This document shows positions 16,179 to 41,017 of a stretch of 64,000 nucleotides of DNA, piece after piece. The position numbers and the translations under genes are program-made. Within the stretch, counting starts at the first letter, position 1. The number at the start of each line of letters is the position of its first letter. Origin of the DNA: Peristeroidobacter agariperforans (GTDB lineage: Bacteria; Pseudomonadota; Gammaproteobacteria; Steroidobacterales; Steroidobacteraceae); assembly GCF_004138335.1 (NCBI RefSeq), contig NZ_RYFW01000004.1, positions 310,001 through 374,000 of the forward strand. The letters are read 5' to 3'. Under the pieces are notes generated by a model that worked only from the letters and a program-made list of their open reading frames with translations, had not been told where the DNA came from and did not search any database.

Positions 16179-16674
16179 GCCTCCATTATAAATCCTCGCT
16201 GCCACCGGTTACCTGGAATTAAAACAGTGCGTTATCGGGGCAAGTCGAGTGCGATTCGACAAATTTGCTGTATTTCAGTAATGAAGTAGATTGTATTTGT
16301 GAAAGAGTGTATCGTCGCCTGAGATCGTTACACGCACGCCCGGAATCTTCGATGCCGGGCGATAGTGAGCGCGACAATATTTCTTTCGAGGTATCGCCTT
16401 GCGCATCGGGTTTCTTTGCGCGAGAGAGCAGACGACAGATTTTTCTTCTGGAGCACACTCATCCACGATGAGTGAAGTTGTGAGCGCCCGGAGTGCCGCT
16501 CGATGATTTTCGATCAATCGACGACGCGCGCGTGCACGCATTTGGATGGATCTGATCGTTCGAGAAGGGTTGGCTAAAAGTAATTGTCCGAGTATTGACG
16601 CGATTGGCGTCGCGGTGATAAGTACGCCACAGACCACATCCGATAACAGGATGGGACTTCTAGGGGGAATATCG
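16179..16674. promoter_or_regulatory. divergent intergenic control region, IclR / TonB receptor
   Basis: This 496-base stretch has no credible gene. On the minus strand a TATAAT (plus-strand 16184–16189) lies six bases before the IclR ATG, so a transcript would begin near the start codon and be almost leaderless. On the plus strand a modest promoter, TTGCTG (16265–16270) with a 16-base spacer and TAGATT (16287–16292), would give the TonB-receptor mRNA a leader of about 375 bases. Neither promoter is certain. Confidence 0.35.
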
Positions 16675-19515
16675 ATGCAGTCGTTGACCAGGAACGGCGT
16701 TTTACGCGCCGCAATTTTGTTAGCGCTAGCAAGCTCTGCGCCAGCTGGAGCGCAAGAGGGTTCATCCGCGCCCGCCAATACCAGTGAACTTGAAGAAGTA
16801 GTTGTTACCGGTATCAGGGAATCCCTACAGCGGAACCTGGACATGAAGCGCGAGGCGACCGGCGTCGTCGACGTGATTTCATCGGAGGATATCGGCAAGT
16901 TCCCGGACTCGAACGTCGCGGCCTCTTTGCAACGCGTGCCAGGCGTCTCGATTCAACGCGCAGGCACACGAGGCGAGCCGACTGGCATCACGGTGCGTGG
17001 CTTCGGCGGCGACTTCAACGAAACACTGTACGACGGTCGACGCATTTCGACCGCGGCTGGCGGGCGTTCGGTTGACTTCAGCACGGTCGGCGCCGACTTC
17101 GTTGGGGCGCTGGCCGTAATGAAGACGCCGGATATCACGCTGTCCTCCAGTTCGATCGGCGCCACCGTCAATGTGATGTTCCCGAAGCCCTTCGATGCGC
17201 CCGGTCCGCGTTTTGTCACGAGCGCCTCCGGCTCGATGCAGGATGAGGCCGGTGACATCAAGCCCACGGCGGGCGTGTTGTTCAGCAACACCTTCGCGAA
17301 CGACACGTTCGGCGTCCTGGCCGACGTGATCTATACGGAGCGCAGCACCGACACCAACAGGGTGTTCGTTTCCGGTTGGGAAGGCGGCAGGTTCGCGGAG
17401 TGCCAGCGGACTTCCTTTTGCCCTCCAGGGGCGCTGGCCAACAGGACCATCGTGGGTTGGTGGCAGCAGCAATACGGCGCCGAACAGTCGCAGGTGAACG
17501 ATGAGCGCATCGACGGCCGCATCGCCTTCCAGTGGCGCCCGTCGGATCGCATGTTGCTCACCGTCGACGACAACTATTCGCGCCAGAAGCTGGTCACCGA
17601 GACGTACGGCTTCGCTCTCTGGTTCAACCGGGACGATCTGCGCAACGTCCAGTTCGACGGCAATGGCACGGTGATCGACTTCATCCAGCCGGGCACGCCG
17701 ATGGATCTGAACGCCGGCATCACGGATCAAGTGCGCGAGACCAATCAGATCGGCATCAACCTGAAGCTGGACGCCTCCGACAACCTGTCGTTCGACTTCG
17801 ATGCCTCGTATGCCAAGAGCGAGCAGAATCCGGACGGCGAGGGCGTGGACAATGCCGACATCGGCTATGGCGGCGCTCTGGGTACCGCGTTGGGCGTGCG
17901 CGTGACCGGCGATAGCAGCGACGCCTTTCCGCAGTTGACCACCTATGGTCCGGCCGGCGATCAATCGCGCTATCTCGATCCTTCGGTGATCGGCTCACAC
18001 GTGCTGGTGCGCCAGCAGCAAGAAAACACCGATGAGCTCAAGCAGGCGCGCATCACGGCGACCTGGAAGCAGGATGGCCTGCAACTCGACGCGGGCACGT
18101 CTTTTGTGGACGACAACTTCCAGCTGCAGCAGAGCAATACGTTCACCAACAACTTCTGGCAGGCGTATTCAGGCTACGGTGCGCCCTCGGGGCGCAGCTC
18201 TGGCGTGATCGTGCCGACCGATCTGTATCGAGGCACCATCGGCACCGGCGGCTTCATCCCAGGGTTCGCGGGCGCGGGCGCGTTGCCGTCGCAACTGCTC
18301 GTGTACGATCCTCGCGGCTTGTACTCGTATCTCCAGGGACTGGGCAATCCGCAGGCGCAGAACATCCCGGGCTTCAACTACGGGTGCTGCAGCTATACGG
18401 GTTCGCTCGATCTCGCGCTCGATCCCGGCAGCGTTCAAGACATCACCGAGGAGACCTGGGCGACATTCGTGCGCGCAAAGTTCGATGTCGACCTGGCCGG
18501 TCGGCCGTTCCACTTCAGCGCGGGCGTGCGTAACGAGCGCACTCACGTCGAGTCCTCGGGCGTCGGTCGCCTGCCTGTCCTTTTGACGCAGAGCGCGGCG
18601 GATCCCACGTTGCTGTCGACGACGTACTCGGACTCGCAGCCGATCACGACCAAGAGCAAATATTCCTATTTGCTGCCGAGCCTCGACATGAAACTGGAGA
18701 TCACGCCCGAAGTTCACGCCCGCTTCGGCGCCTCCCGCACCTTGACCAGGCCTGCGATCAACTTCCTGAATCCGGTGTTGAACGTAGGTGCGCTACCGCG
18801 AGTGGGGGCCCTGACCGCCAACGGCGGCAACCCGGCACTGAAGCCGTATCTGTCGGATAACTTCGACCTCGCGGTCGAGTGGTATTACCAGCAGAACTCG
18901 TATGCGTCGGCGAACTACTTCATCAAGGATGTGACGAACTTCATCGTGCAGGGCACGCAGCGCCAGACCATCAATGGCGTGATCGATCCCACGACCGGCC
19001 AGGCGGCGGTCTACACGGTCTCGCAGCGGGTCAACGGGCCCGATGCCACCGTGGACGGATTCGAGTTCGCGTGGCAACACGTGTTCGGCGACACGGGGTT
19101 CGGCTTCAATGCCAACGTCACGCTGGTGGACACCGACAAGCCCTTTAACCGCAACGACATCTCGCAGAGCGGCTTCGCGGTGACCGGTCTCGCCGATTCC
19201 GCGAACCTGGTCGCGTTCTATGACAAGAACGGCTTCGAGGTGCGCGTCGCCGGCAACTGGCGAGACGAATACCTGTTGCAGTTCGGTCAGAACCAGAACA
19301 ACAGCGAGTTCGGCGCCGAGCCGACGTTCGTCAACTCGAGTCTGCAGATCGATGTGAGCACCAGCTATCAGTTCACCGAGCAGCTCAACGTGTTCTTCGA
19401 GGCGCTGAACGTCACGAACGAGACGATGAGCACGCACGGCCGCTTCGATAACCAGTTGCTCGACGTGTTTGCCTACGGTCGGCGCTACGCCTTGGGCGCA
19501 CGCTTCCGGATGTGA
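16675..19515 (+). CDS. TonB-dependent receptor (polysaccharide locus, first)
   Basis: From the ATG at 16675, preceded by AGGGGGA at good spacing, the product has 946 residues; a start at 16546 would add a 43-residue non-signal extension. A signal peptide ends around APAGAQ. The plug domain begins ELEEVVVTGIRESLQRNLDM (a TonB-box-like region, then plug), with DVISSEDIGKFPDSNVAASL and RVPGVSIQR. The barrel ends in ALGARFRM. The layout matches the IPD/FPD-plug receptors that import oligosaccharides across the outer membrane in Xanthomonas and Caulobacter relatives. The neighbouring xylan/arabinan enzymes suggest the ligand is an arabinoxylan fragment; this is inference. Confidence 0.92.
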   Translation: MQSLTRNGVLRAAILLALASSAPAGAQEGSSAPANTSELEEVVVTGIRESLQRNLDMKREATGVVDVISSEDIGKFPDSNVAASLQRVPGVSIQRAGTRGEPTGITVRGFGGDFNETLYDGRRISTAAGGRSVDFSTVGADFVGALAVMKTPDITLSSSSIGATVNVMFPKPFDAPGPRFVTSASGSMQDEAGDIKPTAGVLFSNTFANDTFGVLADVIYTERSTDTNRVFVSGWEGGRFAECQRTSFCPPGALANRTIVGWWQQQYGAEQSQVNDERIDGRIAFQWRPSDRMLLTVDDNYSRQKLVTETYGFALWFNRDDLRNVQFDGNGTVIDFIQPGTPMDLNAGITDQVRETNQIGINLKLDASDNLSFDFDASYAKSEQNPDGEGVDNADIGYGGALGTALGVRVTGDSSDAFPQLTTYGPAGDQSRYLDPSVIGSHVLVRQQQENTDELKQARITATWKQDGLQLDAGTSFVDDNFQLQQSNTFTNNFWQAYSGYGAPSGRSSGVIVPTDLYRGTIGTGGFIPGFAGAGALPSQLLVYDPRGLYSYLQGLGNPQAQNIPGFNYGCCSYTGSLDLALDPGSVQDITEETWATFVRAKFDVDLAGRPFHFSAGVRNERTHVESSGVGRLPVLLTQSAADPTLLSTTYSDSQPITTKSKYSYLLPSLDMKLEITPEVHARFGASRTLTRPAINFLNPVLNVGALPRVGALTANGGNPALKPYLSDNFDLAVEWYYQQNSYASANYFIKDVTNFIVQGTQRQTINGVIDPTTGQAAVYTVSQRVNGPDATVDGFEFAWQHVFGDTGFGFNANVTLVDTDKPFNRNDISQSGFAVTGLADSANLVAFYDKNGFEVRVAGNWRDEYLLQFGQNQNNSEFGAEPTFVNSSLQIDVSTSYQFTEQLNVFFEALNVTNETMSTHGRFDNQLLDVFAYGRRYALGARFRM

Positions 19516-19521
19516 CATGGC

Positions 19522-19571
19522 AAGGGGAGGCGTCGACGATTTATCCCCTTGGCGGCGCTTCCCCCTTTTTT
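19522..19571 (+). terminator. terminator with alternative hairpin between receptor and halogenase genes
   Basis: GGGGAGGCG (19524–19532) can pair with CGCTTCCCC (19556–19564, one G·U), followed by C and six T (19566–19571), a good intrinsic terminator. A competing hairpin, CAAGGGGA (19522–19529) with TCCCCTTG (19544–19551), uses the same 5′ strand. It ends the receptor transcript 39 bases before the halogenase start and may set receptor versus operon levels. Confidence 0.6.
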
Positions 19572-19609
19572 CGATTGTCGAGAGCGGGGCCAGCTTTGAG
19601 CATTAGGCC

Positions 19610-21150
19610 ATGGTGCAAGCAGTCAAGAGAGTTGTGATCGTGGGCGGCGGCACCGCCGGGTGGCTGGCGGCGGGCATCATCGCCGCCAAACATCGCAGCC
19701 GCATTCCTGCGAGCTTCAGTGTCACTTTGGTGGAGTCGCCGAATACACCGATCATCGGCGTGGGCGAAGGTACGTGGCCGACACTTCGAACGACCCTGTC
19801 TCGGATCGGTGTGTCGGAGACGGAGCTGTTCCGTCAGTGTGACGCCGCATTCAAACAAGGCGCGTGGTTCGCGCGCTGGACGACGGGTGAGAAGCACGAT
19901 GGTTATTACCACCCTTTGATGCTTCCGCAGAATTTTTCGCAGATCAATCTCGTACCGCACTGGCTCGCCAAGAACGACGGGCGCAGCTTCTGCGACGCCG
20001 TGTGCCCGCAGGGCCGGATCTGCGACGATGGTCTTGCGCCCAAGACCATCGCAACGGCTGAGTACGAGGCTCTCGCCAATTACTCGTATCACCTCGACGC
20101 CGGCAAGTTCGCGCCATTTCTTCAGAAACACTGTTGTGAAAAACTGGGCGTGCGCCACGTGCTGGCGGATGTGCGGCGCGTGCACCTGTCCGAGAACGGC
20201 GACATTCGCAGTCTCGAGACCGAGCAGGCCGGAGAGATCGAGGGCGACTTGTTCGTCGATTGCACCGGCTTCAAGGCGCTGCTCATTGGCGAGACGCTGG
20301 GCGTTCCGTTCGTGGACTGCAGTGACGTCCTGTTCTGCGATACCGCACTAGCGATACAGGTGCCGCATGCAACGGACACCAGCCCGATCGCATCACACAC
20401 CATTTCAACCGCGCAGTCGGCCGGTTGGATCTGGGACATCGGATTACCCACGCGGCGCGGTGTGGGGCATGTATTTTCCAGCCGCCATATTTCGGTCGAC
20501 GATGCAGAGCGCGAGCTGCGCGACTACATCGGGCCGGCAGGCAAGGACCTGCCCATGCGTCGGATCCCGATTCGCTCCGGTCATCGACAGATCTTCTGGA
20601 AGCGCAACTGCGTGGCCGTAGGATTGTCGGCAGGCTTCCTCGAGCCGTTGGAATCGTCGGCCATCGTGCTGATAGAAATGTCGGCGAAGCTCATTGCCGA
20701 GCAGATGCCGGTGTGTCGTGAAGTGATGGATGTGATCGCAGCCCGCTTCAACAACACGACCGAATATCGCTGGGGCAGGATCATCGATTTTCTGAAGCTC
20801 CACTATGCGCTCACGCAGCGCGATGACAGTGCATTCTGGCGCGACAACCGATTGCCGGAAACGATTCCGGAACGGCTGCAACATCTGATGTTGCTGTGGC
20901 GCTATCAGTCGCCCTGGTATCACGACGAATTCGATCGGATCGAGGAAGTGTTTCCGGCTGCCAGTTACCAGTATGTCTTGTACGGCATGGGATTTCGCAC
21001 CGAGGTCGAGCCGGACATCGTCGCGGGCGCCGCCAACTCCGCAGAGCGTGCGATGCGTGAGAACCTGGCTCAGATCGACAAGCTGCGCGCGGGCTTGCCC
21101 CGGCATCGAGATCTGATCCGGAAGATCGTACAGCACGGTTTGCAGCCGGT

Positions 21151-21154
<4 letters not shown>
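19610..21154 (+). CDS. flavin-dependent tryptophan-halogenase family protein
   Basis: The protein has 514 residues, the usual family length. The FADH2-binding GGGTAGWLAA is at 12–21, the catalytic-type lysine is in FKQGAWF (Lys82), the halogenase signature is WIWDIGLP (about 273–280), and FLEPLESSAI carries the conserved glutamate. All key residues are therefore present. Members chlorinate or brominate aromatic substrates with reduced flavin from a separate reductase. Here, however, the gene sits in a polysaccharide locus next to a TonB receptor and SapC-like and cupin-8 genes, a recurring association whose function is not settled. It overlaps the SapC-like gene by 4 bases. The natural substrate is unknown. 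Confidence 0.9.
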
Positions 21155-23098
<1,944 letters not shown>

Positions 23099-23099
<1 letters not shown>

Positions 23100-24187
23100 T
23101 GAGAGGGATGATGACGACGAATAAAGCTGTTCGCCTGCTGGCTTGGCTGTTGAGCGCTTCGTTTGCCCATATAGCGACGGCGCAGGTGAAGACGGAAGCG
23201 CCGCCGGCGGTCGCCGGCGCCAAACCGGTCACGCTCGAATCGATAAAAATTCACGCGAGCGCAGTCGAAGGCAATCTGGAAGGCAATGCGGTCGAGCGCG
23301 ACGTCCTGGTGTTCTTACCGCCCAGTTATAAAAAAGACCAGGCTCGACGCTATCCCGTCGTATACGCCCTGCACGGATTCTTTGTGGGGGCGGAACAGTG
23401 GTCACACGAGATTCACGCGCCACAGACCATTGAAGGCGCGTTCGCTCGCGGCGCCAACGAGATGATCGTGGTCCTGCCGGACTCGAAGACCCTCCACAAC
23501 GGCTCGATGTATTCGGGTTCGATCACTACCGGCGACTTCGAGAGCTTCATTGCGCACGATGTGGTCTCGTACATCGATGCTCACTATCGCACGATCCCCG
23601 AGCGGCGCAGCCGTGGCCTCGCCGGTCATTCGATGGGTGGGTACGGTGCGACGCGGATCGGAATGAAACATGCCGACGTGTTCGGCAGCCTCTACGTCAT
23701 GAGTCCTTGCTGTCTTTCGCCGCGGTCGGTCGGACCCGCGAATGCGGAAATGAGCAAGCAGCTGGAAGCGGTCAAGAGCCCGGCGGATCTGGCCAAATTG
23801 CCGTTTTACGCGCGTGCCCAGTTAGCAGCCGCGGCGGCCTGGTCGCCGAATCCGAAGAATCCTCCGTTGTTCCTCGATCTTCCTGCTCAGGCAGGGGAGG
23901 CGCAGGCGGATGTCCTGGCGAGGTGGGCGGCCAATGCGCCGCTGGCTTTCATTCATCAATACATCGGCAACATCCGGCGCTACGACGCGATCGCAATCGA
24001 TGTCGGCGATCAGGACGGTTTGCGCACCGACACGGCCAGACTGCACGACGTGCTCGATGCCTATGGGATCAAGCACAGCTTCGAGGTGTATGCGGGTGAC
24101 CACACGAACAAGCTGGGCGATCGATTCCAGAATCACGTCCTGCCGTTCTTCGGCGCCAGCCTGTGCTTCAAGGCCGGATGTCGCTAG
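23099..24187 (+). CDS. secreted esterase, CE1-like (second)
   Basis: The start is taken as the ATG at 23099, which shares a base with the preceding stop (TGATG); ATGs at 23108 and 23111 are alternatives. The product has 362 residues with a signal peptide (LLAWLLSASFAHIATAQ). It has the α/β-hydrolase features YPVVYALHGFFVGAEQW, GHSMGGYGA (Ser178) and a late DHTNK. It has no E-set domain, unlike its upstream neighbour, so it is a distinct family member and not a duplicate. S-formylglutathione-hydrolase-like and feruloyl-esterase-like enzymes share this pattern; the location favours a polysaccharide side-chain esterase. Confidence 0.86.
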
Positions 24188-24214
24188 CTCGGCAGCTCGA
24201 GACGCGACCAGCTC

Positions 24215-25231
24215 ATGGCACTGTCCCCCACAGAGATCGCGGCGAAGGATGTCACGGATCCCACCGCATTCCTGCGTGAGGTTGCGGAGCCTTGTCGGCC
24301 GGTGGTCATACGAGGCCTGGTCAGTTCATGGCCCGCAGTGTCGGCAGCCATCGGCTCGCCAACACAATTAAGAGACTACATGTCGCGCTTCGATGCAGGT
24401 GGCGAAGCGGAGGTCTTCGTTGGCGAGTCGAGCATTGCTGGCAAGTACTACTACAGCGAGGATCTGCGCGGCTTCAACTTCGCGCGCGCTCGAATGCACT
24501 TCACTGATGCGCTCGATCGTATCGTAGCCACTGCGACCGATCCGAACGGCAGCTCGATGTACCTGGGGTCGCTGCCGGTCGAACAGTATCTGCCCGGCTT
24601 TGCGGCTGAGAATCAGCTGTCGGTGTTGAAGACCAACGTCGCTCCTCGCATCTGGCTGGGGCATGCATCGAGTGTTGCGGCTCACTACGACACGATGGAC
24701 AACGTCGCTTGCGTCGTTGCCGGCGCGCGGCGCTTCACTTTGTATGCTCCCGAAGCGATCGATCGTCTATACGTCGGCCCGATCGATCACACGATGGCCG
24801 GCCAACCGGTCAGTCTCGCCGCATCCGCGCCTTTCGATGACGAGCGATATCCGCGCTTTCGCGAAGTCCGTGACCAAGCGCTGGTGGCCGAGTTGCAGCC
24901 GGGCGATGCCATCTATCTCCCCAAGCTGTGGTGGCATCAGGTCGAGGCGACCGGCGCGTTCAACGTGCTGGTGAATTATTGGTGGGATGCATTCAGCGCG
25001 GGACGCGATGCGCCCGCCGTGGCCATGCTGCTGAGTTTGATTTCGATCGCCGAGCGCCCGCCGGCCGAACGCCAGGCATGGAAGGCGTTCTTCGATCATT
25101 TCGTGTTTCGGACTCAGGGGCATCCGTTGGCGCACCTGCCGGCGGATCAGCACGGCGTGCTCGGGTCATTGAAGCCGGACAACTACCAGAAGATCCGCGC
25201 ACGCGTGATGCAGATGTTGCGGAGTGCGTGA
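24215..25231 (+). CDS. cupin-8 / JmjC-like Fe(II) 2-oxoglutarate oxygenase-type protein
   Basis: The gene encodes 338 residues with no signal peptide. The metal triad of a cupin-8/JmjC fold can be read: HYD (His157, Asp159) and a distal His in LPKLWWHQ (His241), with ARRFTLYAPE and LQPGDAIYLP between them. Such proteins hydroxylate proteins or small molecules with 2-oxoglutarate and O2. It belongs to the halogenase/SapC/cupin-8 trio seen beside TonB receptors. The stop is immediately followed by the GH3 gene. Target unknown; because it is cytosolic it more likely acts on an intracellular protein or metabolite than on polymer. Confidence 0.87.
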   Translation: MALSPTEIAAKDVTDPTAFLREVAEPCRPVVIRGLVSSWPAVSAAIGSPTQLRDYMSRFDAGGEAEVFVGESSIAGKYYYSEDLRGFNFARARMHFTDALDRIVATATDPNGSSMYLGSLPVEQYLPGFAAENQLSVLKTNVAPRIWLGHASSVAAHYDTMDNVACVVAGARRFTLYAPEAIDRLYVGPIDHTMAGQPVSLAASAPFDDERYPRFREVRDQALVAELQPGDAIYLPKLWWHQVEATGAFNVLVNYWWDAFSAGRDAPAVAMLLSLISIAERPPAERQAWKAFFDHFVFRTQGHPLAHLPADQHGVLGSLKPDNYQKIRARVMQMLRSA

Positions 25232-25246
25232 ATGAAAGGGAGCAGC

Positions 25247-27931
25247 ATGTCTTTGAGCGATGTTCCAGCCGGCCTTTTGAGTTTATGCCTGGCGTTCGCT
25301 ACCAGTGGTGTCGCGCTGGCGTCCGATGCCGGTGAGGCATCTCTGCGAGCGCGAGCTGACGCGAAAGCAAAAGCATTGGTCGAACAGCTGACGCTGGATG
25401 AGAAGGTCGAGCAACTGCTCAACACAGCGCCGGCAATTCCGCGCCTGAAGATCCCGGCCTATAACTGGTGGACCGAATCGTTGCACGGCGCCATGGGTCC
25501 TGTGCCGACCACGAACTTTCCCGAGCCGATCGGGCTCGCGGCATCGTTCGATGAGGCCATGGTGCACGAGGTTGCCGCTGCGATCAGCGTGGAAGTGCGC
25601 GCGCTGCACGCACTGGGACGCAAGACAGGTCGGCTGGGGCGCATCGGCACCGGCCTCGACACGTGGTCGCCCAATATCAACATCTTCCGCGATCCGCGTT
25701 GGGGACGTGGGCAGGAAACATACGGCGAGGATCCGTTTCTGACGGCGCGTCTCGGTGTGGCGTACGTACGCGGCATGCAAGGCCCGGATCCCGAGCGTCC
25801 CGATGTGGTCGCGTCACCCAAACATTTTGCGGTTCATAGCGGTCCCGAGTCGACGCGTCACGAAGCGAACGTGTTCGTAACGCCGCACGATCTCGAAGAT
25901 ACCTATCTGCCTGCGTTTCGTGCGGCGATCGTCGAAGGCCAGGCAGGCTCGATCATGTGTGCCTACAACCGAGTCAATGGCGAGCCGGCGTGTGTCAGCG
26001 ATCTGTTGTTACAGAATCGCTTGCGCGACGCGTGGAAGTTCGACGGCTACGTCGTCTCCGACTGCGATGCCGTCAAGGACATCAGTGACAACCACAAGTT
26101 TGCGCCCGATGCAGTCGCGGCGGTGGCGGCCGGGCTCAAAGCGGGTGTGGACAACGAGTGCAGCAACGCCACGTTGTTCGACATCGGGGGGCTCGGCGCA
26201 CGTTACAAGCAGGCGTACGAGCGCGGCCTGATCAGCATGCAGGATATCGATCAAGCGCTGATCCGATTGTTCTCCGCGCGTTATCGCAATGGCGATTTGC
26301 CGGGACTCGAGGGGCGGCCACCGATCAATACTCCGCCCACGCGGTTCACTACGCCCGAGCGCGATGCACTTGCACTGAAGAGTGCCGAGAAGAGTCTGGT
26401 GCTGTTGAAGAATGACGGTGTGCTGCCATTGAAAGGCACCGAACGCATCGCCGTCATTGGGCCGCACGCAGATGCGACGCGTGTGCTGCGCGGGAACTAT
26501 TCATCGGCGCTATCCAGTCCTCCGATCTCACTGGTCGATGGTTTGCGTCGCGCCTTGCCAAAGGCAACGGTGACGCTCGTGCCTGGGGCAGCCTCGGTCA
26601 CCGATGGCGATCCGATTCCGACGTCGGCGTTGCGCTCGCCTCGAGGAGAGCCGGGATTGCTGGCGGAGTACTACGACGCCGAGCAGACCATGCCCAAGCG
26701 TTACGCGAGCCATGCGGACTTCGCCCAGCACGCCAGCAAGGTGAGTTTCAAGAGCAAACCGATCGTGTCTCGCGTCGAGCCCGGCATCGCCATGCGCGGC
26801 AACGAGCACGCTCAGCTATCGGACTACTACCGCGTAGTGTGGACCGGCTTCGTCGTGCCCCCGGAGAGCGGTACTTATCGGATGAATCTCGGCGGCCCCA
26901 ATGCGGAGCTCACGTTCGATGGAAAAGTGATCGCGCGTCATCGCAACCAGCCGTGGGGCACGCGCTCCGACATGACGACGCTCGAGTTGGAGAAAGGACG
27001 GCGTTATCCAATCCGCGTCACCGCTGACGCACTCCTGTTGTCCGGCGTCGAAGTGTTGTGGAAACGAATCTCTGCGCAGCCTGAAGCAGACCTCCGTGCT
27101 GCTGCCGCGCAGTCGGATGTGATCGTTGCCGCCGTTGGCCTGAACTCCAATCTCGAAGGAGAGGAGATGAAGGTCGAGCTGGAAGGTTTCGCCGGCGGCG
27201 ATAAAACGTCCATCGATCTGCTCGCCGATCAACGCCGGCTGCTCGAACTGGCGAAATCGTTGGGCAAGCCGCTGATCGTCGTGCTCATGAACGGCAGCAC
27301 GCTCGATCTGTCGTGGCCCAAGGAGCACGCTGCGGCCATCGTCGAAGCCTGGTACCCGGGACAGGCCGGCGGACTTGCCATCGGCAATGTCATTGCCGGC
27401 AAGACGAATCCAGCCGGGCGCTTGCCGCTGACGTTCTATCGCAGTGTCGCCGATCTGCCGCCCTTCGATGACTACGCGATGCAAGGTCGCACGTATCGGT
27501 ACTTCACCGGCACACCCGTCTACCCGTTCGGCTACGGCCTGAGTTATTCGACGTTCGAGTACGGCGCAGTGACTGTGCAGCCGATGGACGGCGCTGCCGA
27601 GCGCGGGCTTCGCGTCAGCACGACGGTTCGTAATACCAGCAAGCGAGCGGGAGAAGAAGTCGCGCAGCTCTATCTGGATCCTCCGGACTTCGAAGGCGCG
27701 CCGCGAGTTGCTCTGCGTGGCGTACAGCGCTTCGCACTCCAGCCAGGCGAGCAGCGGACTATCACATTCGAGCTCACGCCACGCGACCTGAGTTTTGTGA
27801 CGAGGGATGGTGTGCGGCAGATATTCGCGGGCGAGCACCGCGTGAGCATCGGGTCCGGGCAACCGGAATCAGGTGTGCCGGTGCAATCGGAGTCGTTCGC
27901 AACGACGCAGGTCGTTCCCCTCGCGCTCTGA
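25247..27931 (+). CDS. GH3 β-xylosidase/β-glucosidase with inserted PA14 domain
   Basis: From the ATG at 25247, preceded by AAGGGAG, the product has 894 residues; an ATG at 25232 would add five. A signal peptide ends near GVALA. The GH3 N-domain (WWTESLHG, KHFAVHSGPESTRH) carries the nucleophile in GYVVSDCDAV (Asp272). The second domain is interrupted by a PA14 module (about 465–605, LLAEYYDAEQTM … YRVVWTGFVVPPESGTYRM). A fibronectin-III-like end (VRNTSKRAGEEVAQLYLDPP) follows. WWTESLHG and SDCDAV favour the xylosidase-like GH3 branch. It is periplasmic and should trim xylo-oligosaccharides for the same pathway as GH51 and GH43. Confidence 0.92.
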   Translation: MSLSDVPAGLLSLCLAFATSGVALASDAGEASLRARADAKAKALVEQLTLDEKVEQLLNTAPAIPRLKIPAYNWWTESLHGAMGPVPTTNFPEPIGLAASFDEAMVHEVAAAISVEVRALHALGRKTGRLGRIGTGLDTWSPNINIFRDPRWGRGQETYGEDPFLTARLGVAYVRGMQGPDPERPDVVASPKHFAVHSGPESTRHEANVFVTPHDLEDTYLPAFRAAIVEGQAGSIMCAYNRVNGEPACVSDLLLQNRLRDAWKFDGYVVSDCDAVKDISDNHKFAPDAVAAVAAGLKAGVDNECSNATLFDIGGLGARYKQAYERGLISMQDIDQALIRLFSARYRNGDLPGLEGRPPINTPPTRFTTPERDALALKSAEKSLVLLKNDGVLPLKGTERIAVIGPHADATRVLRGNYSSALSSPPISLVDGLRRALPKATVTLVPGAASVTDGDPIPTSALRSPRGEPGLLAEYYDAEQTMPKRYASHADFAQHASKVSFKSKPIVSRVEPGIAMRGNEHAQLSDYYRVVWTGFVVPPESGTYRMNLGGPNAELTFDGKVIARHRNQPWGTRSDMTTLELEKGRRYPIRVTADALLLSGVEVLWKRISAQPEADLRAAAAQSDVIVAAVGLNSNLEGEEMKVELEGFAGGDKTSIDLLADQRRLLELAKSLGKPLIVVLMNGSTLDLSWPKEHAAAIVEAWYPGQAGGLAIGNVIAGKTNPAGRLPLTFYRSVADLPPFDDYAMQGRTYRYFTGTPVYPFGYGLSYSTFEYGAVTVQPMDGAAERGLRVSTTVRNTSKRAGEEVAQLYLDPPDFEGAPRVALRGVQRFALQPGEQRTITFELTPRDLSFVTRDGVRQIFAGEHRVSIGSGQPESGVPVQSESFATTQVVPLAL

Positions 27932-27981
27932 AAGCACCAAGCCGATCCCGCAAGAAAGTTGAAGACGAAGTAGAGGCCACG

Positions 27982-29538
27982 ATGAATCTGAAGTCCGCGC
28001 TCTCAGCGCTCCTGATAGGTGTGACAGCGTCCGTCGGTGTGGCGCATGCGCAGGCAGTCGCGCTGAAAGTCGAAGCCGACAAACCGGGCGCGAAGATCGA
28101 TCGTCAGTTGTTCGGTCAGTTTGCCGAGCATCTGGGGCGCGGCGTTTACGAAGGTGTTTGGGTCGGGCCGGATTCATCCATTCCGAATACACGGGGTATT
28201 CGCAACGACGTAGTTGCGGCGCTGAAAGAGCTGCGCGTGCCCAACGTGCGGTGGCCGGGTGGCTGCTTTGCCGATGAATATCACTGGCGCAATGGCATCG
28301 GTCCGCTGAAGGACCGACCAGCCACGCTCAATCCGAATTGGGGCGGCGTCATCGAGCCGAACAGTTTCGGAACGCATGAGTTCATGGACTTCGTCCAGCA
28401 GATTGGCGCCGAAGCATACATTTCCGTCAACGTCGGCTCGGGCACGCCTCAAGAAGCTGCGGACTGGTTCGAGTACATGACGACCGCGCAGCCGACGGCG
28501 TTGGCGAAGCAGCGCGCGGCGAATGGTCATCCGGAGCCCTACGGCATTTCCTTCATGGGCATCGGCAATGAGAGCTGGGGTTGTGGCGGATCGATGACGC
28601 CGGAGGAATATGCAGCTCAGCTCCGCATCTACGCGCGCTACACACGCAACTACAACGCGGATCATCCAACACTGAAAATCGCCGTCGGTCCGGATTCGGC
28701 CAACACCGGCTACACCGAAGCGGTGATGAAAGCCTGGAAGGAGCGCAACTGGAGCTGGGACATCAACGGACTCTCGCTGCACTACTACACGGTGGGCGCG
28801 GGTTGGCCGCCGAAGTTCGCCGCGACCGGCTTCGGTGTCGAGGAATACGCGACTCTCATCAACTACACGCTGCGGATGAACGAGTTGCTTCGCACCCATG
28901 GCGCGATCATGGACAAGTACGACCCCGAGAAGAAGATTGCGCTGGTCGTGGACGAATGGGGCGCGTGGCTCGCGCCGACGCCGGGCAGCAAGGAAGGCTT
29001 CCTGGAACAGCAGAACAGCGTGCGCGACGCAATCATCGCCGCGCTCAATATCAATATCTTCGCGCGTCACGCCGACCGCGTGCGCATGGCGAACATCGCC
29101 CAGATGGTCAACGTGCTACAGGCCATGATCCTGACGGATCAGGACAAGCTCGTGCTGACGCCGACCTATCACCTCTTTCACATGTATGTCCCTTTCCAGG
29201 ATGCAACGTTTCTTCCGGTGACCTTCGATGCCGGGACGTATGCAAGCGGCGACATCAAGCTGCCGAAGCTCGATGCAATCGCCGCGAAGGGTAAGGACGG
29301 CAAGACCTGGCTGGCCGTCACCAACATCGATCCCACCGGCCCCGCGCAATTGGAGTTGACGACGCGCGCAAAGCGGGCCGTCGGAAAGATCCTTTCGGCG
29401 CCGAAAGTAGACAGTGTGAATACGTTCCAGGCGCCCGCGACTGTCGCGCCGAAGCCGTTCGAATCGAAGTCGAGCGGCAACAAGATCGCGTTGAAGTTGC
29501 CGCCGCACTCGGTCGCCGTGATTGCGCTCGAACAATAG
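27982..29538 (+). CDS. GH51 α-L-arabinofuranosidase
   Basis: The product has 518 residues with a signal peptide (LLIGVTASVGVAHAQA). The GH51 acid/base glutamate is in GIGNESWGCGG (Glu197) and the nucleophile in LVVDEWGAW (Glu325). RWPGGCFADEYHWRNGIGP is also diagnostic. Length matches bacterial GH51 enzymes, although many are cytosolic and this one is exported. It should remove arabinofuranosyl side chains from arabinoxylan or arabinan oligosaccharides. It follows the GH3 gene by 50 bases and is probably in the same transcript. Confidence 0.94.
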   Translation: MNLKSALSALLIGVTASVGVAHAQAVALKVEADKPGAKIDRQLFGQFAEHLGRGVYEGVWVGPDSSIPNTRGIRNDVVAALKELRVPNVRWPGGCFADEYHWRNGIGPLKDRPATLNPNWGGVIEPNSFGTHEFMDFVQQIGAEAYISVNVGSGTPQEAADWFEYMTTAQPTALAKQRAANGHPEPYGISFMGIGNESWGCGGSMTPEEYAAQLRIYARYTRNYNADHPTLKIAVGPDSANTGYTEAVMKAWKERNWSWDINGLSLHYYTVGAGWPPKFAATGFGVEEYATLINYTLRMNELLRTHGAIMDKYDPEKKIALVVDEWGAWLAPTPGSKEGFLEQQNSVRDAIIAALNINIFARHADRVRMANIAQMVNVLQAMILTDQDKLVLTPTYHLFHMYVPFQDATFLPVTFDAGTYASGDIKLPKLDAIAAKGKDGKTWLAVTNIDPTGPAQLELTTRAKRAVGKILSAPKVDSVNTFQAPATVAPKPFESKSSGNKIALKLPPHSVAVIALEQ

Positions 29539-29606: not shown

Positions 29607-32570
29607 ATGTTTAAAATTTTTTGCAAGGACGGCTCTGGCTCCAGGATGACCTCGACACGCTTGCAGGCGCTGGCCGCTTGCGGGCTACTGCTGCCGCTAG
29701 CGGTGCACGCGCAGGACACGCCATCCGAATCTGAAGCGGCTGAGGAGGGCGGTGGCCTCGAAGAGATTCTCGTCACTGGCACTCGCATCATGTCGAGCGG
29801 GTACAATGCGCCGACACCGACCTCGGTCATCAGCGCTGAGCAGCTCACTGCCAATGCGCAGCCCAATATTTTTACGACGGTCGCGCAGCTGCCCTCGCTG
29901 CAGGGCTCCACGGGCACGCAGACCAACACGTTCAGTACATCCAGCGGCGCCCAGGGCCTGAGCTCGTTCTCGTTACGAGGCTTGGGGGCCATCCGTACGC
30001 TGACGCTACTCGATGGCCAGCGCGTCGTGGGCGCAAACGTGACGGGCGTACCCGACGTCAGTTTGTTCCCTCAGTTGCTGATCGAACGCGTCGACGTGGT
30101 TAACGGCGGCGCATCGTCTTCTTACGGTTCCGACGCGGTGGGCGGCGTGGTCAACTTCGTTACGAACACGCGTTTCGAAGGCGTCAAGGGCAATGTGCAA
30201 GGCGCCGTCACCAACTACGACGACAATGAAACGATCGTCGCGCAGATCGCTGCCGGCAGCAGCTTCTTCGATGGTCGCCTGCATGCCGTGGGCAGCATCG
30301 AGTATCACGATGAAGCAGGTGTGGGCCCAGGTCCGTACGGCATCGGCCTTGCGGGCGGTCGCGACTGGTTTACACAGCGCACGCTGGTGAATCGCAACGT
30401 GCTGAATGACGGTTCGCCGCAATATAACGTCATCGACTACGCCCAGCCTTACAACTACACCAAGTACGGCCTGATCACGTCCGGGCCGCTGCAAGGCACC
30501 GCGTTTGACGAGGCCGGCAACCCGTTCACCTTCCAGTACGGTTCCAACGGAACACCCGCAGGGAATGCAGCGGGCACCGTCAATGGCTGCCTTCCGGGCT
30601 TCTGCGTCGGTGGCGACGTTTCCGGCAACGTCGACTCCGGCCGCACGCTCCAGTCCGATCTGGAGCGCATCAACGGCTACGGCCGGGTCGGCCTCGAATT
30701 CGCGGACGACGACGAGATCTATGTCACGGCCAACCTGGCCCAGGTTCAGACTCACAATCAGCCGATCAACGGCATGAACCGGCCGAATCTCACGATCCAG
30801 TGCAGCAATGCGTTCTTGCCCGCGTCCATCCAGCAGAGGTGCGCGGATGCTGGCATCACCAGTTTTCAGTACGGCACCAGCAACGCAATCCTGCCAAGCA
30901 CGCAGGTCTACACCGACCGCCGTCAGTATCGTTTCGTGTTGGGCGCGATGGGCGGACTGAACGTGCTGGGCGACGAGTGGAACTACAACGGCTACTACGA
31001 GCACGGCATCAACTTCAGCGACATCGATGTGAAGAGCATCATGCTGAACCCCCGGTTCAACCAGGCGATCAACGCGACCGTCTTGGACGGCAATATTGTT
31101 TGCGCGAACGCGGCGGCGCGCGCCAGCGGATGCGTCCCCATCAACATCTTTGGCGGCATGCGGCCTTCGGACGCGGCCTTCAACTACCTCATGCCCGCAA
31201 AGGGCCCGTATCAGCGAACGCGCCAGAACCAGGACGTGGCGAGCTTCAACGTCTCCGGCACGCCGGTCGACCTGTGGGCAGGGCCGCTGGCTCTTGCCTT
31301 CGGTGTCGAGTGGCGAAAGGAAGAATACCGGGTTCGCGCCGACGCCTATGGCAACGGCATCAATACTCAAGCGGGCATCGAAGGTACCCCGTACAACTCG
31401 GATTATCCGGCCGATCCCGTGCTGGGAGACAACGGCAACAACTGGTATGCGGGCAACTACAAGAACGGCGAAGGCGACTACAGCGTCAAGGAAGCCTATG
31501 TGGAGTTCGATCTGCCGCTGTTCGATTCGGAGGGCGCCGGTCGAGCGAACTTGAATGCCGCATCCCGCGTGACCGATTACAGCACCTCGGGGACGATCGA
31601 TGTGTGGAAGGTCGGCGGCACTTGGGACACTCCGCTCGATGGACTGCGCTTGCGCGCAACCACGTCGCGCGATGCGCGTGCGCCGAATCTTTCGGAGCTG
31701 TTCGCAGCGCCGGTCACCACCACGCTGCCGAACTTCCTCGATCCGACCCGTAACGTCAACGTGATCGTGATCCAGAACCAGGTCGGCAATCCCGCCCTCA
31801 CGCCGGAAATCGCTCGCAACACTTCGTTCGGCGTCGTGCTGTCCGAACCGGCCTGGCTGCCGAACTTCAGCGTGTCGGTCGATTATTACAAGATCAAGAT
31901 CGATGACGTCATCTCCAGCCTCAGTGCCAACGACATCGTCAACTACTGTGTCCGGGGCATCCTGCCGCAGACCTGTGGCTCGTTCAGCCTGGACAATTCG
32001 AATGGACCGGGCTTCGTCAACGTCCAGTCGTTCAATTTCGCGTCGATCGAGACCTCGGGCTTCGACATCGAAGCGAGCTATCGCTGGCCGCAGTTGTTCG
32101 GTCTTGCCGGTACGTTCACGGTGCGCGGCCTGGCTACGCACATCCGCGAATATGTCACCGACAACGGTCTGCCGGGCACCGTTCCGGTCGACACCGCCGG
32201 GGTGAATATCGACTCCAAGGCGGATTGGAAAGTGCTCGCCATCCAGAGCTACGACACCGACAAATTCTCGCTCCAGATCCAGGAGCGTTGGATCAGCGAC
32301 GGTGTGTTGGGCAACCAGTACATCGAATGTCAGCCGGGCACCTGCCCGGTCTCGACGGTGGCTCGGCCGACCATCGATAACAATCACGTCGACGGGGCTT
32401 TCTACCTCGACATCGGCGGATCGTACGAAGTGCTGCCGGGCACGACGGCCTACTTCAAGGTCGACAACGTGCTCGACGAAGATCCGGCGCGTGTGACGAT
32501 CTTCAGCAACCCGGCGCTCTATGACGCTCTGGGCCGGGTGTACCGACTCGGCGTGCGTTTCGATCTTTGA
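29607..32570 (+). CDS. TonB-dependent receptor (polysaccharide locus, second)
   Basis: The gene encodes 987 residues from an ATG preceded by GAGAAGAGA. The signal sequence is longer than usual, with the hydrophobic core ALAACGLLLPLAVHAQ. The mature N-terminus GGLEEILVTGTRIMSSGYNA is the TonB-box/plug entry, followed by plug motifs SFSLRGLGAIRTLTLLDG and INGGASSSYGSDAVGGVVNF-like segments. The barrel ends YRLGVRFDL. The plug is of a different subgroup from the receptor at 16.7 kb, so the two probably take different oligosaccharides. A strong terminator follows directly. Confidence 0.92.
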   Translation: MFKIFCKDGSGSRMTSTRLQALAACGLLLPLAVHAQDTPSESEAAEEGGGLEEILVTGTRIMSSGYNAPTPTSVISAEQLTANAQPNIFTTVAQLPSLQGSTGTQTNTFSTSSGAQGLSSFSLRGLGAIRTLTLLDGQRVVGANVTGVPDVSLFPQLLIERVDVVNGGASSSYGSDAVGGVVNFVTNTRFEGVKGNVQGAVTNYDDNETIVAQIAAGSSFFDGRLHAVGSIEYHDEAGVGPGPYGIGLAGGRDWFTQRTLVNRNVLNDGSPQYNVIDYAQPYNYTKYGLITSGPLQGTAFDEAGNPFTFQYGSNGTPAGNAAGTVNGCLPGFCVGGDVSGNVDSGRTLQSDLERINGYGRVGLEFADDDEIYVTANLAQVQTHNQPINGMNRPNLTIQCSNAFLPASIQQRCADAGITSFQYGTSNAILPSTQVYTDRRQYRFVLGAMGGLNVLGDEWNYNGYYEHGINFSDIDVKSIMLNPRFNQAINATVLDGNIVCANAAARASGCVPINIFGGMRPSDAAFNYLMPAKGPYQRTRQNQDVASFNVSGTPVDLWAGPLALAFGVEWRKEEYRVRADAYGNGINTQAGIEGTPYNSDYPADPVLGDNGNNWYAGNYKNGEGDYSVKEAYVEFDLPLFDSEGAGRANLNAASRVTDYSTSGTIDVWKVGGTWDTPLDGLRLRATTSRDARAPNLSELFAAPVTTTLPNFLDPTRNVNVIVIQNQVGNPALTPEIARNTSFGVVLSEPAWLPNFSVSVDYYKIKIDDVISSLSANDIVNYCVRGILPQTCGSFSLDNSNGPGFVNVQSFNFASIETSGFDIEASYRWPQLFGLAGTFTVRGLATHIREYVTDNGLPGTVPVDTAGVNIDSKADWKVLAIQSYDTDKFSLQIQERWISDGVLGNQYIECQPGTCPVSTVARPTIDNNHVDGAFYLDIGGSYEVLPGTTAYFKVDNVLDEDPARVTIFSNPALYDALGRVYRLGVRFDL

Positions 32571-32645: not shown

Positions 32646-33986
32646 ATGAAACTATCGTTACTACAGCTCCTGCCCGCCACTGTTGCAGGACTGTTGCAGG
32701 CGACTGCAGCCTTCGCAACCAATCCTCTGATCATGGATCAGTTCACCGCCGACCCGACCGCGCGCGTGTTCGAGGGCAAGGTCTATGTTTACCCCTCGCA
32801 CGACATCAAGGCGCCGCCCGGCTACACCGGCAAGCCAAACTGGTTCGTCATGGAGGACTATCACGTGTTCTCGTCGGAGAACCTCACGGATTGGGAAGAT
32901 CACGGCGTGATCTTGACGCGCTCGGCGGTCGAATGGGCCAATCAATCTGAATACGCCATGTGGGCGCCGGACAGCGTCTTCAAAGACGGCAAGTATTATT
33001 TCTATTTCCCGGCGATCGCGAAGTCGGGCGGATTCCGGATTGGCGTCGCGATCGCAGACCAACCCCATGGTCCGTTCAAGCCCGAAACCACTCCCATCGA
33101 AGGCGTGCAAGGAATCGATCCGTCGGTGCTCATCGACAAGGATGGCAGCGCTTACCTGTACTACTCTGCGAACAAGATCTTCGCCGCCAAATTGAAGCCG
33201 GACATGCTGCAGATCGAGGGTGAGCCGATAGTCTTCGACAACCTGCCGAAGAAGGGGCTGCAGGAAGGGCCATTCGTGTTCGAACGCAATGGCATCTACT
33301 ACCTCACTTATCCGCACGTGGAGAACAAGACCGAGCGGCTCGAGTATGCGACCAGCACCTCGCCAATGGGGCCGTTCAAATGGGCGGGAGTCATCCTCGA
33401 CGAAGCGCAGAGCGGCTGCTGGACCGTCCATCATTCCATCGTGGATTACCGGGGCCAATGGTATCTGTTCTATCACGATAAAGATCTGTCGCCCGGCTTC
33501 GACAAGAACCGCTCGATCAGGGCCGACAAACTGTTCTTCAACACCGACGGCACGATCCGGAAGGTCATCCCGACGCTCCGCGGTGTCGGACTTGTCGATG
33601 CCAAGAGCGAGATTCACATCGACCGCTACAGTGCGATCAGCGACGCGGGCATCGCGGTTTCGTTCTTGGATGAGGCCAATCCGCACGCAGGGTGGAAGGC
33701 CACTTTCAGCGCCGCAAAATCGTGGGTGAGGTTCAACGAGGTCGACTTCGGGGCGGGGGCGCAGCAATCGATCGAAGTGCGCGCGAAGGCGCCCGCCGGG
33801 GGCGCAATCGAGATTCGCTTGGACAAACAAGATGGACCCCTGCTCGGCCGCATCCAGGTCGGCGAGAAAACCGGCTGGCAAGCTGTGAGTGTCGCAGCGA
33901 AAAGCGTCCCGGCCGGTGTCCACGATCTTTTCGTAACTCGAGTTGGGGGTGAAGCCATCGACGTGGATTGGGTCAGGTTCCGCTGA
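32646..33986 (+). CDS. secreted GH43 glycosidase with C-terminal CBM6-like domain
   Basis: The product has 446 residues with a signal peptide ending around AAFA. A five-bladed GH43 domain fills roughly 28–315. The base Asp is in FTADPTARVF (Asp36), the second Asp in GIDPSVLIDKDG (Asp158) and the acid Glu in LQEGPFVF (Glu207). Residues about 325–446 form a β-sandwich resembling CBM6 (WVRFNEVDFGAGAQQ, GVHDLFV, DVDWVRFR). The family includes β-xylosidases and arabinofuranosidases, which fits GH51 and GH3 nearby. It follows the strong terminator, so it should have its own promoter. Confidence 0.92.
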   Translation: MKLSLLQLLPATVAGLLQATAAFATNPLIMDQFTADPTARVFEGKVYVYPSHDIKAPPGYTGKPNWFVMEDYHVFSSENLTDWEDHGVILTRSAVEWANQSEYAMWAPDSVFKDGKYYFYFPAIAKSGGFRIGVAIADQPHGPFKPETTPIEGVQGIDPSVLIDKDGSAYLYYSANKIFAAKLKPDMLQIEGEPIVFDNLPKKGLQEGPFVFERNGIYYLTYPHVENKTERLEYATSTSPMGPFKWAGVILDEAQSGCWTVHHSIVDYRGQWYLFYHDKDLSPGFDKNRSIRADKLFFNTDGTIRKVIPTLRGVGLVDAKSEIHIDRYSAISDAGIAVSFLDEANPHAGWKATFSAAKSWVRFNEVDFGAGAQQSIEVRAKAPAGGAIEIRLDKQDGPLLGRIQVGEKTGWQAVSVAAKSVPAGVHDLFVTRVGGEAIDVDWVRFR

Positions 33987-34146: not shown

Positions 34147-34725
34147 ATGACCAGATTTTTTTTCCCCGTCCTGGGGCCGGCGTCGATCACTCGTCGGGCG
34201 ATGCTCAAGAACAGCACTGCAGCGGCAGGGGCTGCGCTGGCACTTGCTGCCGCGCCCGCGGTTGGCGCTAAAGGCTCATCCAGGCTCGAGCAGAACAAAG
34301 CCATCGTAGGCCGATGGTTCAGCGAATTCTGGGGCAATCCGTGGAATCCCAAGGTCATCGAAGAGCTGGCTGACCCGCAGATGCTGCTTCAATATTCGTT
34401 ACACGCACCGCGCCGTGGCCGCGATGACATCAGAAATTTCATGGTCGGCTTCCGCGAAGCCTTTCCCGACCTGAACTTCACCGGCACCGCTGATCTGATT
34501 GCTGAAGGTGATTTTGTCGTGGGTCGTTGGATAGGCGGCGGCACGCACACCGGGCCCGCCTTCAGCGATTTTCTCGCCGGTTCGTTGCCTGCTGCGACGG
34601 GCCGCAAGATGCACTTCAGCGGCACGACCGTCCTCAAGGTGGTGAACGGCAGGATCACCGAGGAGGTCGGTCTCGACGACGGTGTTACCGCCCTGACTCA
34701 GCTGGGCATCCTCCGGCGAGCCTGA
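34147..34725 (+). CDS. Tat-exported SnoaL-like protein
   Basis: The product has 192 residues. SITRRAMLKN followed by an alanine-rich hydrophobic stretch (AAAGAALALAAAPAVGA) is a twin-arginine signal. The rest is a SnoaL/NTF2-like domain: IVGRWFSEFWGNPWNPKVIE, FREAFPDLNFTGTADLIAEG and KMHFSGTTVLKVVNGRITEE. SnoaL-like folds occur in cyclases, epoxide hydrolases and many small-molecule-binding proteins. It lies 161 bases after the GH43 gene and closes the polysaccharide run; a direct role there is not shown. Confidence 0.85.
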   Translation: MTRFFFPVLGPASITRRAMLKNSTAAAGAALALAAAPAVGAKGSSRLEQNKAIVGRWFSEFWGNPWNPKVIEELADPQMLLQYSLHAPRRGRDDIRNFMVGFREAFPDLNFTGTADLIAEGDFVVGRWIGGGTHTGPAFSDFLAGSLPAATGRKMHFSGTTVLKVVNGRITEEVGLDDGVTALTQLGILRRA

Positions 34726-40240: not shown

Positions 40241-41017
40241 ATGCTCCGCTGCACGTTCGACCGCAAGATAACAGCCGTCAATCCGGCTTGGACCGAAATC
40301 CTAGGCTGGCCGGAAAATGAGCTCGTAGGCTGCTCGCTCTTCGACTTTGTCCACCGTGATGATTTGCAACGCACGGCCCAGGGTGCGATGGATCTGGCGG
40401 CAGGCAGAGGCCACGAACGCTTCGACAATCGCTATCGGCATCGCGACGGCAGCTATCGTTGGATCAGCTGGGCGACACGATCGAACGAAGGCGTCATTAC
40501 GGCGACCGGACGGGACGTGACCCGCGAGATCGAGCAGGCGCACCAATTGGGGCAAGGCACCACCGTTTGTATCTATCTGCCCCGTCACCAGGGACCGATA
40601 GCTGATGACGCAACGAGCTCGGAGGTCGCGCTCCAGCCTCGCTCCTACCAAGGCGAGACGGTCCTGGTCGTCGACGACGAGTCGACGATTCGAATGCTGC
40701 TGGCCGATACCCTGGCCGAGCTCGGATATTCGTCGCTCGAAGCGGCCGACAGCGCGAGCGGCCTGAAGATTCTAGAATCGGATGTCCGTGTCGATTTGCT
40801 GATAACCGACGTGGGACTGCCGGGCGGCATGAATGGCCGGCAGATGGCCGATGCGGCTCGCGTGCGCCGTCCGGACCTGAAAGTTCTTTTCATCACGGGT
40901 TATGCGGAGAATGCGGTGCTCCGCACCGGCCATCTGGAGACCGGAATGTCGGTGATGACCAAGCCATTTCCAATCGAGGCAATGGCGGCGCGAATCAGGG
41001 CGCTGATCGAGGAGTAG
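40241..41017 (+). CDS. PAS–receiver protein, truncated hybrid kinase remnant
   Basis: The open frame of 258 residues begins with the PAS domain LRCTFDRKITAVNPAWTEIL, and the same frame is open back to about 40136 (DRNALWQLTRDLM). After GRDVTREIEQAHQ it jumps directly to GQGTTVCIYLPRHQG, the last strand of an HATPase domain, so the HisKA/HATPase core has been deleted. A complete receiver follows (TVLVVDDESTIRMLL, DLLITDVGLPG, MTKPFPIEAMAARIRALIEE) with its Asp. The gene is contiguous with the kinase pseudogene upstream and is probably the tail of the same or an adjoining decayed kinase. It could still yield a PAS–receiver protein, but its function is doubtful. Confidence 0.6.
   Translation: MLRCTFDRKITAVNPAWTEILGWPENELVGCSLFDFVHRDDLQRTAQGAMDLAAGRGHERFDNRYRHRDGSYRWISWATRSNEGVITATGRDVTREIEQAHQLGQGTTVCIYLPRHQGPIADDATSSEVALQPRSYQGETVLVVDDESTIRMLLADTLAELGYSSLEAADSASGLKILESDVRVDLLITDVGLPGGMNGRQMADAARVRRPDLKVLFITGYAENAVLRTGHLETGMSVMTKPFPIEAMAARIRALIEE

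Follow-up and report, generated by a model that had tools for sequence, protein, structure and literature searches.

A flavin-dependent halogenase, a SapC-family protein, and a cupin-8 oxygenase encoded beside one clade of TonB-dependent receptors, with a candidate tryptophan for modification

The flavin-dependent halogenases BrvH and Xcc4156 (6frl and 6y1w) and the protein of structure 2pyx belong to the same family as a halogenase encoded in the DNA analyzed here, a window of 64,000 nucleotides from Peristeroidobacter agariperforans (contig NZ_RYFW01000004.1, positions 310,001 to 374,000 of the forward strand). In this window, the halogenase gene follows a gene for a TonB-dependent receptor and lies with genes for a SapC-family protein and a cupin-8 oxygenase. 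BrvH and Xcc4156 differ in having been studied as free-indole brominases; an excerpt of PMC7336383 describes their native substrates as unknown and attributes 2pyx, a halogenase without a name of its own, to the Joint Center for Structural Genomics. A term search of PMC5945002 found no mention of TonB, SapC, or operon.

The window halogenase is also a distant relative of the flavoproteins QhpG and GoxB, and it scored far below their family cut-offs. QhpG and GoxB modify protein tryptophan and act on the polypeptide. FIH, JMJD7, and JMJD5 are animal enzymes that were matched by the cupin-8 protein and have iron ligands in common with it, but they have no halogenase partner. An Fe(II)/2-oxoglutarate dioxygenase gene beside a siderophore receptor gene, presumably the dioxygenase named PiuC/YbiX, likewise joins an oxygenase to a TonB receptor; one such pair was annotated in locus L127, and it differs in its siderophore receptor and in having no halogenase or SapC gene in the pair. 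The tryptophan halogenases of ribosomally synthesized and post-translationally modified peptides, of which MibH is said to be a further example, have short precursor peptides as substrates and belong to biosynthetic clusters, not to the surroundings of outer-membrane receptors. ChlH and SrpI are likewise flavin halogenases that act on peptide tryptophan, and the relevant part of PMC12518702 offers a precedent in that ChlH chlorinates internal tryptophan in peptides and in one protein.

The window receptor is a member of the TonB-Xanth-Caul (TIGR01782) receptors. Some papers on sugar uptake in Caulobacter, Xanthomonas, and Shewanella reportedly list such genes beside N-acetylglucosamine or xylan receptors. 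The novelty of the gene association itself is uncertain. Term searches found no mention of a halogenase or SapC in the examined papers on sugar utilization or TonB receptors and no mention of a halogenase in a review on TonB transport published in 2024. In the literature searched, we found no description of a halogenase-SapC-cupin module beside receptors, and no earlier account of receptor modification by it or of the candidate residue named below. The results presented here indicated that the constant partner of the halogenase was one receptor clade, and not the sugar enzymes or one sugar. Our leading, if tentative, explanation is that the halogenase, SapC, and cupin-8 proteins form a module that modifies the cognate TonB receptor. 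That the module halogenates a near-invariant tryptophan at the extracellular rim across the receptor clade, which would be a post-translational halogenation of outer-membrane transporters, is a narrower proposal that we regard as rather doubtful. The genes of this set, and two sites within them, were as follows.

16546..19515, + strand: TonB-dependent receptor of the TIGR01782 subfamily (longest open reading frame; TIGR01782, 583 bits versus a cut-off of 310)
17620..17625, + strand: codons of receptor W359-F360, candidate modification site (from conservation and a predicted strand end)
19610..21154, + strand: flavin-dependent halogenase, 2pyx-like, 514 amino acids (PF04820, 409 bits versus a cut-off of 21)
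19853..19855, + strand: codon of halogenase K82 (invariant in 160/160 aligned halogenases)
21151..21837, + strand: SapC-family gene, ATGA overlap with the halogenase gene (PF07277, 155 bits versus 28.9)
24215..25231, + strand: cupin-8/FIH-like 2-oxoglutarate oxygenase (PF13621, 214 bits)

The receptor start at 16675 chosen in the first-pass annotation also fit, as an ATG at residue 44 of the longest open reading frame, and the ATGA coupling of the halogenase gene to the SapC gene, which had been pointed out there, could be read directly in the sequence.

The halogenase was assigned to PF04820 because it showed the Pfam match, the glycine motif for flavin adenine dinucleotide, the catalytic lysine, the WxWxI motif, and the catalytic glutamate. 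It had been claimed that the lysine, glutamate, and WxWxI motif were kept, and we found K82 (which we take to be the catalytic lysine, by its numbering), W273-x-W275-x-I277, E345, and E348. In an alignment of 160 halogenases, W273, W275, E345, and E348 were as invariant as K82 (160/160), and I277 was present in 158/160. Because the motifs were conserved, we rejected a degenerate halogenase. Matching against the PDB identified 2pyx as the closest solved structure (E = 2.1e-162) and related the enzyme, at the level of homology only, to the free-tryptophan halogenases PrnA and RebH. An enzyme of this kind might instead oxygenate protein tryptophan in the manner of QhpG or GoxB, with no halogenation, and the NCBIfam models for both were weakly matched, at 25.4 bits for QhpG (NF049967) and 20 bits for GoxB. 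Both scores were far under the respective cut-offs of 240 and 400, and the halogenase lysine and glutamate were invariant and WxWxI nearly so; we consider this explanation very unlikely.

The P. agariperforans genome (7.65 Mb) contained 9 full-length PF04820 genes, 6 SapC genes, and 4 cupin-8 genes, together with 36 TIGR01782 receptor genes above the cut-off (one of them scored in two pieces). Seven of the nine halogenase genes lay in operons with a TIGR01782 receptor gene, which, with 36 such receptors in 7.65 Mb, is more than chance would give. A genome scan was then made with four of the nine halogenases, aligned, as the query, and the best 80 of 586 relatives were kept. The scan loci and the own-genome copies provided 77 subfamily-A halogenases with room upstream. 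A TonB receptor was encoded directly upstream on the same strand in 76/77, SapC within 6 kilobases (kb) in 77/77, and cupin-8 within 7 kb in 55/77; the sole exception for the receptor was L092, in which a second halogenase gene sits between the receptor and halogenase genes. The position of the SapC gene varied across the 80 loci, with the start no more than 100 bases downstream of the halogenase gene in 36 and an upstream position on the opposite strand in 42; SapC was not seen in 2 of the 80. One genome may hold several halogenase copies beside different receptors. The first-pass annotation had presented the recurrence of the trio beside TonB receptors as a known association, and the recurrence stood, most firmly for the receptor and SapC. 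No prior description of it came to light in the literature searched.

Two other arrangements were observed. In L154, L174, L180, L181, and L184, two tandem halogenase genes were present with no SapC or cupin gene in the stretch, and the receptors had a tryptophan-methionine (W-M) pair, not tryptophan-phenylalanine (W-F). In L149, L150, L153, L156, L159, L169, L179, and L185, the receptor gene was followed by SapC and cupin-8 genes, with a halogenase gene of a distant type last.

The receptors linked to subfamily-A halogenases were related to one another. In a tree of 90 receptors, into which 53 representatives of 75 linked receptors were entered (receptors shorter than 750 to 800 amino acids were left out), the halogenase-A label required 7 changes, versus 29 in shuffles, and the module and W359 were carried mainly by one TIGR01782 subclade. 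W359 was present in 53/53 linked representatives and was aligned in 3/25 unlinked receptors, 24 of which came from the P. agariperforans genome. A further 73 receptors were obtained from 27 of 30 searched genomes; the exact W359 column held tryptophan in 30/32 that had halogenase and SapC genes nearby, and the remaining 2 had a tryptophan within three residues of it. When the sets were pooled, W359 was found in 110/112 linked receptors (107/109 distinct ones, as 3 of the 112 rows repeated another row) versus 18/56 unlinked receptors, and the W-F pair was found in 102/112 linked receptors. Outside both counts were 29 receptors of other or mixed linkage (8 W-F, 6 W-M, 6 with another W pair, and 9 without W), among which Z_L238 (W-F) was placed by hand, with no partner in its 1.5-kb flanks; 13 receptors of a separate comparison; and the L235 receptor, whose frame was broken by a TAG and which had no W359 entry. 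The runner-up tryptophan was 89% conserved in linked receptors. Between positions 346 and 370, only the W359 and F360 columns exceeded 52%, and the flanks were divergent. W905 and Y781 were set aside as weaker target candidates because they were more variable in linked receptors. Of six receptors with one halogenase gene directly downstream and no SapC gene, four carried W, one of them as W-F.

For a contrast between genomes, 118 genomes from the taxonomic order to which L048 belongs were divided by whether they matched the window halogenase at E <= 1e-40, as 76 did and 42 did not; 38 of the 42 had no PF04820 match at E <= 1e-10, and 4 had partial matches of 71 bits or less. From the 76, we used 42, namely 23 with matches at 1e-130 or better and 19 with matches at about 1e-55 to 1e-72, and left out the intermediates. 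A profile of 49 linked receptors (E <= 1e-120) detected receptors in 21/23 close-halogenase, 3/19 distant-only, and 4/42 halogenase-less genomes. SapC, for which 80 of the 84 grouped genomes were searched, was present in 19/19 searched of the 23 close-halogenase genomes. The first 26 receptors from these 23 genomes were 25 W-F and 1 W-Y. Among 43 receptors from the same genomes, W359 was present in 29/29 whose flanks of 1.5 to 2 kb held a gene for a halogenase, SapC, or cupin-8 and in 1/14 with no flank partner (Z_L238). The last 17, which were examined after the hypothesis had been formed, had W359 in 4/4 with a partner versus 0/13 without. The extra set of 18 receptors that includes these 17 had W359 in 4/4 with partner genes versus 0/14 without; the receptor matches listed in halogenase-bearing genomes numbered 48, of which 30 loci were fetched at first and the other 18 later. 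None of 9 receptors from halogenase-less or distant-halogenase genomes was W-F; two were F-F in an otherwise similar context, and two were W-G in a different loop. Among the 42 halogenase-less genomes, we found none that had lost the halogenase and kept the clade receptor. A class-wide receptor search, with matches in 2/149 genomes only, was too sparse to use.

The predicted structure of the receptor was used to place W359. The AlphaFold2 model had a mean predicted local distance difference test score (pLDDT) of 85.4, with a value of 95 for the block from residues 351 to 360, and all 50 fold matches listed for it were TonB-dependent receptors by title. W359 was the last residue of a predicted strand (residues 336 to 359). 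The modeled turns alternated between short ones (333-336, 409-414, 509-512, and 650-653) and longer ones (after residues 359, 427, 531, 674, and 734). Since W359 lies on the long-loop side, the usual rule for TonB receptors would put it at the outer, extracellular end of its strand.

The partner proteins had features that bear on where modification might occur. FIH and its JMJD relatives hydroxylate proteins, and the PDB matches of the cupin-8 protein were FIH, JMJD7, and JMJD5 chains; it aligned with FIH across the HYD and WWH iron-ligand regions and carried the HxD...H ligands. The AlphaFold2 model of SapC was confident (pLDDT, 95.8; predicted template modeling score, 0.89), and it had no fold match at E <= 0.001 in the PDB and none among viral predictions, so we did not name SapC by fold. 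Inspection by eye and a hydropathy scan, with no dedicated predictor run, revealed no evident signal peptide in the halogenase, SapC, or cupin-8 proteins, and signal-peptide-like starts in the receptor and in both esterases and two glycoside hydrolases of the locus (GH3 and GH51). A set of enzymes without signals, one of them FIH-like, beside an exported receptor is consistent with a receptor that is modified while still unfolded, before it is exported.

We therefore propose the following sequence of events for receptor modification, which we infer from these genes and models. The receptor would be modified in the cytoplasm after its synthesis and before Sec export and insertion into the outer membrane. 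The flavin halogenase would halogenate an aromatic side chain of the receptor, and the cupin-8 oxygenase, where its gene is present, would hydroxylate the receptor elsewhere. SapC might serve as a common adaptor, presenting the receptor or keeping it unfolded, which is our guess from the gene order. W359 would be the leading candidate site, and a changed indole there could tune contact with the incoming oligosaccharide or shield the rim. The first-pass annotation had listed residues of receptors or of other proteins among the possible targets of modification, and this suggestion gained circumstantial support from the receptor as constant partner and from a near-invariant tryptophan on the predicted outer side.

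A number of observations weigh against this proposal. It is an assumption that a cytoplasmic enzyme can reach a residue of the barrel. SapC was present in 23/42 halogenase-less genomes and is therefore not exclusive to the module. W359 is, on alignment, also a clade marker: nine clade receptors with no halogenase gene in the fetched stretch keep it (six as W-F or W-Y and three as W-N), and the genomes of all nine hold halogenases elsewhere, because they were reached through halogenase loci. Two receptors that are unlinked and do not belong to the clade (L038 and L200_9990) also had the W-F pair. Conversely, no tryptophan was found at the column in the S_L198 and S_L176 receptors, which are near partner genes, in the L179_1679 receptor with SapC and cupin genes downstream, in the own-genome L035 receptor with a SapC gene about 4 kb away, or in the plasmid N138 receptor, which has one gene between it and halogenase and SapC genes. 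On plasmids, 7/11 receptors near a halogenase gene had W359 with F or M, and three of the other four had no annotated SapC. R966, A878, and E664 were slightly more accurate than W359 as markers of linked versus unlinked receptors (balanced accuracy, 0.84 versus 0.83), although they were less constant among linked receptors. The contrast between genomes, like the link to W359, is confounded with ancestry. An independent-pairs test for W359 on 9 pairs gave 1 pair in the same direction, 0 contrary, and 8 with no difference, and when W plus F, Y, M, V, or I was scored, 3 pairs were in the same direction, 0 contrary, and 6 with no difference (P = 0.25); neither was significant, and informative pairs were too few.

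Several of these observations fit a version of receptor modification in which the receptor is the substrate but W359 is not the site, the W359-F360 pair having no role in the clade beyond sugar stacking or structure. This version overlaps our proposal. Aromatic residues at sugar channels commonly stack on sugars, unlinked paralogues share W359 as a trait of the clade, and the pairs test was not significant; however, a residue that determined specificity should differ from sugar to sugar, and W359 was the same beside xylan, agar, galactoside, GH95, and GH2 genes. We regard this version as possible but on the unlikely side.

A different explanation is that the substrate of the halogenase is a small aromatic molecule, such as an indole or another metabolite common to the loci, which would be produced or taken up while the sugar system is active and would serve in signaling or defense, and that the receptor is merely coregulated. 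Within PF04820, the commonest activity is halogenation of free substrates. Against this, the fixed partners were a receptor, SapC, and a cupin resembling protein hydroxylases, in a survey that did not systematically cover other neighbors, and several copies in one genome beside different receptors would be odd for one metabolite. This explanation seems somewhat unlikely to us.

The sugar genes around the module were also informative. Annotated plasmid copies of the receptor, halogenase, and SapC genes lay beside xylan genes, and other plasmid copies lay beside agar and beta-galactoside genes, alpha-/beta-galactoside genes, GH95 and GH31 genes, and GH2 genes. In the same annotation, a gene table that is incomplete by its own account, halogenase genes without an annotated SapC gene nearby were found beside beta-glucosidase, fucosidase and xylosidase, and GH68 genes, and one had no receptor. 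The first-pass annotation had raised the possibility that an aromatic (feruloyl) side group freed by the locus esterases is modified, and we considered halogenation of feruloyl or other phenolic groups accordingly. The locus does contain two esterases, and the closest NCBIfam model for esterase 1 was a bifunctional xylanase/feruloyl esterase (NF041944); yet the scores of 288 bits for esterase 1 and 58 bits for esterase 2 did not reach its cut-off of 1200. Relatives of either esterase were missing in 45/70 long loci, and a relative of esterase 1 was present in 1/70. Because the sugar genes varied, with agarase and galactosidase genes among them, and the esterases were mostly missing, neither ferulate nor arabinoxylan is the common factor, and we rejected a feruloyl or arabinoxylan-specific function as the general role. 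The signal-peptide-like starts of the esterases, which the partner proteins lack on the same inspection, also count against it, and we judge it highly improbable.

If receptor modification is correct, a surface protein of bacteria would be halogenated by an enzyme, which could affect sugar specificity and the attack of phages and colicins on receptors and could be of use as a tool for tryptophan-selective protein bromination. The native-substrate question is narrowed, since one halogenase subfamily is tied to one receptor clade and one residue is singled out as the candidate.

Halogenase and oxygenase genes also occurred together in phages. In the cyanophages Sf-CH11 and Sf-FP1 (L140 and L252), a tryptophan halogenase gene was located among 2-oxoglutarate-Fe(II) oxygenase genes adjoining structural or tail-fiber genes, which might mean modification of a virion protein. 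By annotation, 3 of 5 cyanophages examined had no such arrangement of halogenase, oxygenase, and tail genes, and the parallel is only suggestive because it was seen in 2/5. As for SapC, stand-alone genes were frequent in genomes without a halogenase (L244-L251), and several of these 8 loci were near FAD-linked oxidase-like and DEAD-box helicase-like genes, named by eye; these neighbors gave no clear lead to the role of SapC.

The remaining genes of the sugar locus in the window were as follows. Esterase coordinates are those of the longest open reading frames, and the real starts are probably further in.

21834..23099, + strand: putative esterase 1, signal-peptide-like start, sugar locus and not module (PF00756 match)
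23027..24187, + strand: putative esterase 2, signal-peptide-like start, sugar locus and not module (PF00756 match)
25232..27931, + strand: GH3, xylosidase-like, sugar locus (family-model match)
27982..29538, + strand: GH51-type alpha-L-arabinofuranosidase, sugar locus (family-model match)
29607-32570: second TonB receptor (distant subfamily), 3' of the arabinofuranosidase gene
32646-33986: GH43 with a carbohydrate-binding module of family 6 (CBM6), outside the range 16675-29538

The receptor, halogenase, SapC, two esterase, cupin-8, GH3, and GH51 genes formed one colinear run, in that order. A scan for promoters and terminators gave no signal, with 0 promoter-like sites and 12 terminator-like sites versus 10.7 expected. 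The TonB receptor, two esterases, GH3, and GH51 that had been listed as neighbors were confirmed, whereas the GH43 gene assigned to the same range lies beyond it. The second TonB receptor had neither W359 nor an adjoining halogenase gene of its own. Downstream of the GH43 gene were genes for a small SnoaL-like protein (34147-34725), a very large hybrid histidine kinase (PAS, GAF, and receiver domains; 35076-39497), and a PAS-receiver protein (40241-41017).

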